From the NCBI RefSeq assembly GCF_009936035.1, contig NZ_QWEO01000008.1, positions 1-64,000 on the forward strand: a DNA stretch of 64,000 nt, written 5' to 3'. This stretch comes from Neglectibacter sp. X58 (GTDB lineage: Bacteria > Bacillota > Clostridia > Oscillospirales > Acutalibacteraceae). The translations under genes and the position numbers were made by a program. The notes below the pieces were generated by a model, which did no database searches, was not told the origin of the DNA, and worked only from the letters and a program-made list of their open reading frames with translations. Shown here in pieces: positions 4,128 to 9,657 of this stretch (within the stretch, counting starts at the first letter, position 1; each line of letters begins with the position of its first letter).

Positions 4128-4952
4128 TTAGTGCCTGGGATTATCCAGCACCTTTTTGCACGCCCACATGATCTGGGCGATGACGGCGGTGTTATAGCGC
4201 CCTTCATACACAGTCAGCATGGGGGTGGCCTCGTTTTCCCGCACCACCACATATTTTGCGGGAAGGCTGGTGAGGGTGAGGGCCACCACGTCCACCCGGC
4301 AGCGGGGGCAGGTACACAGGCCGAACATTTTCATGTATTTGTCAACCTTTTCCTCCACCAGCTCCTGCATAACGTTCAGGCAGGTAATAGGCCGATCCTC
4401 CTCCGGCACTTCTTCTTTCGCTTCCGCCGCCGGCGCGGGTTCCGGCTCCGGGACAGCTTCAGGCTCCGGCGCGGGTTCCGGCTCCATCTCTGCAACTGGT
4501 TCCGGCTCCGGCTCTGGCGCAGGCATGGGGGCGGGTTCCTGGGCCTGCTCTAAAACAGGCTCCGGTTCCGGTTCTGGCTCCGGAACAGGCTCGGGCTGAG
4601 GCTCCGGCTCGGGGGCGGGGGCGGGGGCCTCCTCCAGGGGCGTGGCGTCTACCGTGGCTTCCGGTTCTACCGCAGGGGCAAAGTCCTGCATGGGGATAAA
4701 ATCCTCCTCGGGCAGGGCTTCCGCAGGGGCTTCCCCCAGCTCGGCGGCTAAATCCTCCTCCAGTGCGTCCCGGATGGTGGCGGCGACAGTTTCATTGTCT
4801 GCAAGCTGGGGGGGGGCGGGAGGCGCGGCAGGAGGGGTGCGTCCGGCAGCCCCTTCCTCCTGGGTGTGGTCTGTTTCGGTGAGCAGGTTGAGCACATGGG
4901 CGGTTTTGCTGCTTTTGCCGCCCCTTCCAGATTTTCCGGTAGCTTTTGGCAT
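4128..4952 (-). CDS. comFB: ComFB-domain protein with Pro/Glu-rich linker
   Basis: The C-terminal ~90 residues of this 274-residue protein match the ComFB family: [12 protein letters not shown], then a cysteine set CTCPRCR, then [17 protein letters not shown]. The N-terminus is basic. Residues about 95-180 are a low-complexity PEPEPEP tract, probably disordered. Bacillus ComFB is encoded in the comF operon but has no proven essential competence role; cyanobacterial ComFB proteins are reported to bind cyclic dinucleotides. The start at 4952 lies 10 bases after AAAGGAA. The gene follows parA on the same strand after a 123-base gap, so the two may be co-transcribed. A sensory link between second messengers and motility is only inference. 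Confidence 0.75.
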
Positions 4953-5075: not shown

Positions 5076-5867
5076 TCACCGCCGGGGGGGCCAGGGTCGG
5101 GGGTTGCCCATCAGCTCGTCCAGCAGGTTCTGGAAGTCCAAGGCGGGGTTGGAGTTGGGCGCATAGCTTAAAACGCTTTCGCCATGGGCCGGGGCCTCCG
5201 CCACAGTGACGCTGGTGCGGATTTTCGTCTCAAACACCTTGGTGTCCAGGCGGCGGGCAATTTCCGCGGAAAGCTCCAGCACCTCCCGGTTCAGGGTCAG
5301 GCGCATGTTATACTTGTTCAGCAGGATGCCCAGCACCCGCAGGTTCGGGTTATAGTATTTGCGCACCGTGTTGATGGTATCCAGAATCTGGGAGATGCCC
5401 AAAAGGCTTAAAATTTCCGGGGCCATCGGGATAATAAGGGCGTCGGAAGCCACATAGGCATTTACGGTGAGGACATTCAGGGCCGGGGGCGTGTCGATAA
5501 TAATGTGGTCATAGAGGTGGGCAATTTTTTGCAGCTCGTTTTTCAGCATATACTCCCGCCCCGGGGAATTGAATTCCAGCTCGGCAGTGGAGAGCAGGAT
5601 GTTGGAAGGCAGGATATCCCCCAAATCCGTGGGCACAATGGCCTGTTCCACAGAGGCGGTGCCCTTAAACACATCGTATACGGTGGTGCTGTTTTCAATG
5701 TCCAGCCCGGCGGAAAAGCCCAAGCTGCCCTGGGGGTCAAGATCCACCCCCAGCACCCGGCGGCCCCGCATGTGCAGGGCGTTAATGAGGGAGAGGGAGG
5801 TGGTGGTCTTGCCCACGCCGCCCTTCTGGTTGGTTACGGTAATAAATTTCTCCATAGGAATCGCCAT
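5076..5867 (-). CDS. parA: ParA/Soj-like ATPase without a ParB partner
   Basis: This 263-residue P-loop ATPase has the deviant Walker A KGGVGKTT (residues 15-22), Walker A' DLDPQGSLG and Walker B IIIDTPPAL, and the Soj-type tail. Such ATPases oscillate on the nucleoid or membrane to position cargo. No parB or parS is visible, and it is not a FlhG/MinD by sequence. It is divergent from fliD, which hints at positioning flagella or chemosensory arrays, but that is inference. The start is uncertain: ATG at 5867 or ATG at 5855 in the same frame. The nearest Shine-Dalgarno (AAAGGAAC) is about 55 bases further up, separated by a hairpin shared with the fliS leader. The frame stays open to 6125, but that part overlaps the fliD promoter region. 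Confidence 0.85.
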   Translation of the reverse strand: MAIPMEKFITVTNQKGGVGKTTTSLSLINALHMRGRRVLGVDLDPQGSLGFSAGLDIENSTTVYDVFKGTASVEQAIVPTDLGDILPSNILLSTAELEFNSPGREYMLKNELQKIAHLYDHIIIDTPPALNVLTVNAYVASDALIIPMAPEILSLLGISQILDTINTVRKYYNPNLRVLGILLNKYNMRLTLNREVLELSAEIARRLDTKVFETKIRTSVTVAEAPAHGESVLSYAPNSNPALDFQNLLDELMGNPRPWPPRR

Positions 5868-5934
5868 GCGATACAGGATGCGCGCAAAAGCTAAGAAAAC
5901 GCCGTCCTTTGCGCCCGGTATCGTTCCTTTCTTT
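5853..5934 (-). other. Structured leader element, parA copy
   Basis: Read on the minus strand, AAGAAAGGAACGATACCGGG is followed by a hairpin and then ATCCTGTATCGCATGGCGAT and the start codon. Stem 1 pairs GATAC with GTATC; stem 2 pairs GCGCAAAG with TTTTGCGC. The same arrangement precedes fliS at 9174-9255, with matching changes in stem 2. If the hairpin forms, the ribosome site is brought to within about six bases of the ATG at 5867. Confidence 0.55.
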
Positions 5935-6124
5935 AATATTAAAACCTCTATGTCAAAGCAAAATTTGCTGAAAGCCCTTATCTTTCTATTTGTATTGTCG
6001 ATATAAATAGGGAAAGAGTTAAGTGTCTCTGCGGCTTTTTTTACATTTGCCGCCCGCTGGGCGCGTTTATTTGAAAGGCCGCTTTCTTCCAAAGCTATTA
6101 TATCATAAAAGGAGTTGAGAATCA

Positions 6125-8932: not shown

Positions 8933-8937
8933 TACGG

Positions 8938-9104
8938 GGAGTGTCCAAAGCGAGTCTTTTAAAGAATGAAGAAACATAAAAGTTTCGTCCACCTTTTCAA
9001 AGTGTGGGCAAACGCAAATGCTTTGCATTAGCGTTGCTCCGGGGTATTTAGGGGCAAAGCCCCTAAACCGCCGGAGGCATAAAACGTGCTGTCTGGACAC
9101 TCCC
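8938..9104. repeat. Palindromic multi-hairpin element
   Basis: Perfect 11-bp inverted ends, GGGAGTGTCCA at 8938 and TGGACACTCCC ending at 9104, bound a 167-base block. Inside are AACGCAAATGC/GCATTAGCGTT (one mismatch) and CTCCGG/CCGGAG, the latter enclosing TTTAGGGGC/GCCCCTAAA. It looks like a small non-coding structured repeat; no gene is visible in it or in the rest of the fliD-fliS gap up to the leader. Confidence 0.6.
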
Positions 9105-9173
9105 GCTGATGCGGCCCGGCTGGACAGGGAAGATAAAATCCTTTTAAAACGGCGCGGCAGCGTGAAGAATACG

Positions 9174-9252
9174 GAAGAAAGGAAAGATACCGGGCATAAA
9201 GCGCCGCTTTTTCAGGGCCTTTTGTGCGAATCCTGTATCGCGTGGCGATTAT
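9174..9252 (+). other. Structured leader element, fliS copy
   Basis: AAGAAAGGAAAGATACCGGG is followed by a hairpin and by ATCCTGTATCGCGTGGCGAT before the fliS ATG. Stem 1 pairs GATAC (9186-9190) with GTATC (9235-9239). Stem 2 pairs GCATAAAG (9194-9201) with TTTTGTGC (9220-9227). Relative to the parA copy, both arms of stem 2 have changed and pairing is kept. The distance from ATACCGGG to the ATG is 66 bases here and also 66 to the inner ATG of parA. Confidence 0.6.
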
Positions 9253-9657
9253 ATGGAACACAACGGTTTCCAGCAGTATAAGGAACAGTCTGTCAACACC
9301 ATGACCCAAGGCGAGCTGCTCCTGCTGCTGTATGACGAGCTGGTAAAGCATCTGGTACGTTGCGAGCTGGCCCTGAAGCAGGAGAATTTCGAGCTGCTGG
9401 AGGCTTCGGCAGATAAGGGCATGGACATCATCCAGTATCTGGACGACACCCTTGACAGGCAGTACCCCATCGCAGGGGATCTCCACCGGCTCTATGATTA
9501 CTTCAGCTATCAGTTGGGCCGGGTGAAAATCGGGCGGAACAAGGATGTGCTGGAGGAGATAAAGCCCATGATACTGGAGCTGCGGGAAAGCTTCCGCACA
9601 GCGGATAAGAACTGCGCCGAGCAGGCGCAGCCCCAGCCCCAGCAGCAGGAAAGTTAA
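9253..9657 (+). CDS. fliS: Flagellin export chaperone FliS
   Basis: FliS is a small helical cytoplasmic chaperone that binds the flagellin C-terminus, prevents early polymerisation and delivers it to the export gate. The 134-residue protein shows the family pattern: YKEQSVNTMTQGELLLLLYDELVKHL near the start, then helices carrying IIQYLDDTLD and LYDYFSYQLGRVKIGRN. The C-terminal tail is Gln-rich. No good ribosome site lies directly before the ATG at 9253; the closest, AAGGAAAG at 9179-9186, is separated by the structured leader described above. A GTG at 9243 starts a short frame that is not in phase with fliS. It follows fliD in the usual order. Confidence 0.93.
   Translation: MEHNGFQQYKEQSVNTMTQGELLLLLYDELVKHLVRCELALKQENFELLEASADKGMDIIQYLDDTLDRQYPIAGDLHRLYDYFSYQLGRVKIGRNKDVLEEIKPMILELRESFRTADKNCAEQAQPQPQQQES

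Follow-up and report, generated by a model that had tools for sequence, protein, structure and literature searches.

The window, by which we mean the whole 64,000-nt stretch of DNA analyzed here, carries two copies of a non-coding element of about 85–95 nt, one in the leader of parA and one in the leader of fliS. The parA gene (5079–5855, minus strand; stop codon outside these coordinates) encodes a Soj-like ATPase (Pfam AAA_31), and its element copy (5859–5942, minus) is an 84-nt insertion relative to congeners, with a degenerate 5′ end and no clear GTGAAAAATAC. The displaced native Shine–Dalgarno (SD) sequence of parA, AGAGGT, lies at 5944–5949 (minus), and its congener counterpart stands directly before their ATG. 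Within the copy we placed a carried extended SD, AGAAAGGA (5925–5932, minus), from its sequence and from the duplex profile over copies; a hairpin, hp1 (5870–5922, minus), with a GATAC..GTATC outer stem, an inner stem, and a variable loop, from covariation; and a possible competing hairpin, hp2 (ATCGC-ATG-GCGAT; 5860–5872, minus). The fliS copy (GTGAAGAATAC..GGCGATT; 9159–9250, plus strand) likewise comprises the extended SD AGAAAGGA (9176–9183, plus, from sequence), hp1 (9186–9239, plus, from covariation), and a possible hp2 (ATCGC-GTG-GCGAT; 9237–9249, plus), which folding predicts to win here with P of about 0.7; fliS itself follows at 9253–9657 (plus). Both start codons were set by orthology. 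All 12 congener parA orthologs examined (a 13th, from G019, at 67% identity, lies outside this set) align with the ATG at 5855–5853, which makes the start at 5867 given in the initial annotation wrong, and all 12 evaluable congener fliS orthologs align at 9253, the ortholog in L139 being out of register and left out.

The initial annotation had described sequence blocks common to the two leaders, which a check of the sequence found at the positions claimed, and the likeness of the leaders is far beyond chance. The compensatory changes it had noted in the inner stem, GCGCAAAG/CTTTTGCGC in the parA leader and GCATAAAG/CTTTTGTGC in the fliS leader, are also present and agree with covariation in larger alignments. 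The covariance model and genome search that it had suggested were run as well, and yielded many further copies and hairpin covariation above shuffles. In a BLAST search of the whole genome with the parA leader (191-base query), 39 of the 41 matches were elements including the query, the remaining element matches being 75–86% identical to it. A covariance model based on the alignment of these 39 gave at least 97 matches at E ≤ 0.1 across the whole genome, a lower bound from scoring 150 of 1698 candidates; in the genome stretches fetched it identified 83 copies at E ≤ 0.001, so the genome holds at least 83. Three sets of copies were compared: the 83 of the own genome, 46 further copies (37 from congeners and nine from named contigs), and 37 from other genera. 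L229 has just 48 nt of upstream sequence, and set A6 comprised 90 chosen loci.

The consensus of the element reads (N)GT-GTGAAAAATAC-(N)-AAGAAAGGAACG-[hp1]-GCATGGCGATT-NNN-ATG; its parts are, in order, the A-rich 5′ end GTGAAAAATAC, the extended SD AGAAAGGA, a hairpin that differs between copies in length and sequence, and GCATGGCGATT, and the hp1 consensus sets GATAC-C-GG-GCACAAAAGG against CTTTTTGTGC-GNAT-CC-T-GTATC. In the mean duplex profile no stretch matches the anti-SD better than the carried SD, at −8.7 kcal/mol, and the complementarity of AGAAAGGA to the 16S tail extends past the usual core. Pairing in hp1 is standard in 93.5% of the cells of its 17 pairs among the 39 copies. In a larger set of 101 copies, drawn from over 20 genomes, 97.8% of outer-stem cells are paired, with double changes in five of five pairs (31 cells vs 7.7 in shuffles). 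The whole hairpin is 91.2% paired, with double changes in 15 of 17 pairs (88 cells vs 29.5 in shuffles), in an alignment that was fitted to hp1 and so biased in its favor, slid controls being far lower. Single-sequence folding energies of the two window copies are not unusual against shuffles (z of 0.40 and 0.12), so the claim for hp1 is a comparative one; the predicted outer-stem probability exceeds 0.5 in just 82 of 166 copies. In diverged copies the hairpin interior and bulge vary, being shortened or replaced, and the SD, the outer stem, and the spacing are retained (e.g., L195, L194, and L314); two copies before one gene in two species (L311 and L313) have the same outer stem and spacing with a different hairpin interior. 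Such variability inside a conserved SD, stem, and spacing fits a structural spacer and would hardly be allowed by a ligand pocket. The initial annotation recognized no known riboswitch in the leaders, in agreement with Rfam searches, in which the element matched no curated family when the whole window was scanned at the gathering threshold, and none of four matches in seven loci scanned up to an E-value of 5 overlapped it.

The A-rich 5′ end might be taken as the beginning of a leader peptide or upstream ORF that starts from GTGAAAAATAC, is translated from the native SD, and is coupled to the gene. Many copies do have a GTG or ATG after the native SD, and some upstream ORFs end at the main ATG; however, neither the frame nor the position of the stop is constant, indels of one base put copies in different frames, and many copies have lost the start. 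A leader peptide is thus very improbable, and its inconsistent frames led us to reject it.

The element lies in sense to its host gene, with 3 nt usually separating its end from the ATG. An ORF of at least 40 aa starts directly downstream of 74 of the 83 own copies, 40 of the 46 copies from congeners and named contigs, and 36 of the 37 from other genera (150 of 166, or 148 of 164 once the duplicates between sets, L120=L318 and L122=L304, are removed). This length criterion is permissive, five of the 74 own ORFs being under 90 aa; with ORFs of at least 90 aa, the counts are 69, 38, and 34. The start codon after own copies is ATG in 71 of 74 cases. Among the 150 copies at starts, 104 place the start codon 12 nt from the bracketed triplet in GC[ATG]GCGATT (45 own, 30 from congeners and named contigs, and 29 from other genera), and in five more own copies, scored at 6 nt, another ATG of the same frame stands at 12 nt. 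Random same-strand positions in the same loci, by comparison, had an ORF start in 35% of cases (1406 of 3983), an ATG in 16%, and the 12-nt distance in 2%. Copies scattered over unrelated sites away from starts, which the initial annotation had named as evidence against its reading, are not the prevailing pattern. Its main alternative, a simple dispersed repeat, also holds true, but the copies sit mostly at start codons and keep their structure. The ATG in the hp2 loop is unlikely to be the main start: a minority of copies have lost it or have it out of frame, and orthologs begin at the downstream ATG instead.

Host genes include parA, fliS, lgt, truB, rapZ, greA, rpe, scpA, hisE, and genes for prephenate dehydratase, iron hydrogenase, transporters, and a PemK/MazF-type protein. 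In a scan of 30 element-bearing genes, out of 64 closed own ORFs at least 90 aa long, functions were unrelated and no shared pathway emerged. The initial annotation had proposed an RNA element that controls the translation of ParA and the flagellar chaperone jointly; a structured RNA element at translation starts is what we find, but joint control was rejected in view of the 83 or more copies, mostly before unrelated genes, and of congeners that lack the element at parA (11 of 12) and at fliS (12 of 12).

A broader regulatory role was considered in connection with hp2, which shares ATC with hp1, the two helices being mutually exclusive. Comparison of copies supports hp2 weakly: 85.4% of its cells are paired, and it shows 13 double changes vs 5.7 in shuffles (a value reached in 2 of 500), and its T/A to C/G pair covaries (p = 0.007; 123 of 129 copies usable), but neither the number of covarying pairs nor that of pair types exceeds shuffles. 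Folding predicts that the fliS copy prefers hp2 and the parA copy hp1. A regulatory RNA, either protein-bound or acting as a ligand- or temperature-sensing hp1–hp2 switch, that spread to join genes in one regulon would be consistent with the shared ATC, with these differing predicted preferences, and with stem letters that are alike across genera in high-scoring copies. The unrelated functions of the 30 scanned genes, bulge and loop letters that are not conserved among diverged copies, occupancy that differs between species, and the weakness of hp2 all argue against this explanation, which we consider unlikely.

Comparison with relatives identifies the element as an insertion. At the parA locus, four congeners (G002, G001, G006, and G042) align at 82–94% on both sides and lack the element, and the empty site is clean: with junctions marked by a slash, relatives read ..GAGAGGTTCCAT/ATG.., vs ..TAGAGGTT/84 nt/CCT/ATG.. 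in the window. In full, the congener junction is GAGAGGTTCC(C)AT/ATGGAAAAA or similar, and that of the window is TAGAGGTT, 84 nt (5942 to 5859), CCT/ATGGAGAAA. Eleven of the 12 parA orthologs examined are empty, that of G041 holding a diverged element, and the fliS site is empty in all 12 evaluable congeners. Clean junctions were also found at a MinD-like gene (GGTGG.ATT/CTCATG) and at L050 (GGGGGTGATT/TTTATG); a few orthologs in the junction comparison (e.g., genes 10 and 23 and L272) have their start some bases off. In a model scan, 89 of 91 matching congener loci lacked the element, the carriers being L264 and L344; these 91 comprise the 12 parA loci and 79 loci for 23 other genes in five congeners, taken from 108 matches after leaving out two for L173 (not fetched), low-scoring ones, and several of G005. 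A native SD, taken as an anti-SD energy of at most −6 no farther than 20 nt from the element, lies upstream in 63 of 165 flanks, vs 34 and 35 of 165 in two control windows at the same energy cut. In a comparison of copy identity that took 60 of the 83 own and 30 of the 46 other copies, five copies at different loci of G042 were 90–97% identical, a sign of recent movement; an ORF start follows three of these five but neither L100 nor L106. Judged from these alignments, the element is dispersed and has been mobile recently, and its insertions separate the native SD of a gene from the ATG. Several genes, matched by their N-termini, carry the element in more than one species, often with diverged hairpins (L095/L096/L097, L103/L107, L180/L108, and L311/L313), and these copies may be either old shared insertions or repeated insertions at favored genes.

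We consider the best explanation, and probably the right one, to be a mobile split ribosome-binding site (RBS), in which folding draws the carried SD close to the start codon of the host gene. Separating a gene's SD from its ATG would be expected to silence that gene, but the element would bring its own SD, AGAAAGGA, in place of the disrupted RBS. By looping out the roughly 55 nt that separate this SD from the host ATG in the mRNA, the hairpin would offer the ribosome a nearer-to-normal spacing. This spacing comes to about 16 nt with hp1 formed, and to about 9 nt with hp1 trimmed and hp2 formed; the latter figure depends on the weakly supported hp2, which counts against the split-RBS explanation, as do the folding energies and outer-stem probabilities given above, the copies with no detected ORF start, and the failure to find an enzyme. 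We infer that initiation relies on the fold to use the carried SD, and that insertions survive for that reason.

How the copies came to lie at starts bears on two further possibilities. No ORF start was detected after 16 of the 166 copies, and such copies make up 8 of 32 at 95 bits or more vs 8 of 134 below (Fisher p = 0.003), although detection bias may contribute to this excess; the other 24 of the 32 do sit at starts, so a preference for starts may also play a part. That consensus-like, probably young copies more often lack a start favors survival over strict targeting, and speaks for some insertion away from starts, with the structure later kept only where it is translated. A selfish 90-nt element that seeks start codons, prefers the SD–AUG gap, and does no harm thanks to a transcript that folds up as a substitute RBS would, if real, be the translational counterpart of a self-splicing intron. 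We give this version tentative credence, short of an even chance, the excess of start-less consensus-like copies making it less likely. The same excess, together with the empty sites and the recent copies, would suit a MITE-like element acting at the DNA level, its hairpin serving transposition only, its RNA fold irrelevant, and its host genes translated from chance SDs. The fixed distance to start codons, the conserved carried SD, and the outer stem and spacing that L311 and L313 keep despite different interiors make this account distinctly unlikely. If the split RBS is correct, the translation-initiation region has been replaced at some 70 genes of one genome, including the core genes lgt, truB, greA, scpA, parA, and fliS; RNA folding offers a way to conceal an insertion; and the copies form a natural library of split RBSs with diverse hairpins for tests of SD–AUG spacing.

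Several known systems resemble the element in part. In the split RBSs of phage T4 genes 38 and 25, the precedent for the mechanism proposed here, RNA structure between SD and AUG shortens the spacing from 22 to 5 nt and from 27 to 11 nt, respectively (PMC3014915). Their common feature, a conserved helix between SD and start codon, is found in the element; these are, however, single phage genes, whereas the element is dispersed, inserting, and common to unrelated genes. The Start-Associated Sequences and extended SAS (SAS/ESAS) of cluster K mycobacteriophages lie nearly all in one orientation, typically 3–7 bp ahead of a start codon, which is ATG in most cases, and an inverted repeat accompanies about half of them (PMC3203893). 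They are like the element in their single orientation just before start codons and unlike it in belonging to phage genomes, in having a 13-bp core, and in an inverted repeat that lies upstream of that core rather than between SD and ATG; they are also conserved at homologous genes, whereas the element is a lineage-specific insertion. The 13-bp SAS core GGGATAGGAGCCC is absent from the consensus of 39 element copies. Rickettsia palindromic elements and other MITE-like repeats share with the element their small size, palindromic form, and tolerated presence in unrelated genes, but the Rickettsia elements lie in coding regions and encode peptide, and the portion of the source at hand describes no start-codon placement or carried RBS (PMC10969869). 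Our literature search, from sources available in part, found no description of this element, SAS/ESAS and the Rickettsia elements being nearest in kind. With many similar copies and empty sites in relatives, as expected of MITEs and other small dispersed mobile repeats, we class the element among such repeats, where it would be unusual in carrying a split RBS placed at start codons.

No mobilizing enzyme was found for the element among those considered below. No terminal inverted repeat joins both ends in the three copies tested, and no consistent target-site duplication was found in 65 copies, the letters of the 5′ flank being unlike the fixed GATT at the 3′ end. Nine of the 29 genomes of the genus, the own genome among them, have IS200-type (Y1) transposases, but an IS200/IS605 origin has no support in the 14 loci fetched, where the covariance model found no significant element copy (one match at E = 1) and the short BLAST words, those shown at E of 0.15–0.58, are at chance level. 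Three of the four IS200-type (Y1) transposase genes of the window genome look degraded, with in-frame stops or as fragments (L294, L295, and L296), and G042 has two full-length ones. A reverse transcriptase domain was found in 12 of the 29 genomes (11 over the cut-off), with no visible link to the element. Another dispersed repeat, unrelated to the element, occupies 8936–9108 of the window in the fliD–fliS gap; pieces of it occur, among the matches listed, at many places in the genome and in many congeners, and G042 has just 59 nt between its fliD and fliS matches.

The distribution of the element is patchy within Acutalibacteraceae. It was detected in 10 of 28 congeners searched, with one to five matches each and 19 in G042. 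Among 250 genomes sampled from the family, 17 were carriers, in 12 of 135 genera including the own genus, and among 345 sampled from the order there were five, all Acutalibacteraceae, with up to 15 and 11 candidates scored per genome, respectively. An exact pattern matched 16 stretches in named public genomes, including Acutalibacter sp. 1XD8-33 and the MAGs UBA7217, DTU089, and Lapin-021 bin38. The parA leader had no match in phage or plasmid records and the pattern none in viral contigs, and an origin from phage, plasmid, or virus was rejected. Clostridiales bacterium DTU089 has four tandem copies (L128, 2275–2738; one weak, at E of 0.009) before a gene that by eye resembles DUF421/YetF, and in the window genome the element also precedes a DUF421 gene (L054). 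Another locus (L036) has tandem copies at 2492 and 2582, and at 4419–4784 a PemK/MazF-type toxin–antitoxin gene with a diverged copy at its start.
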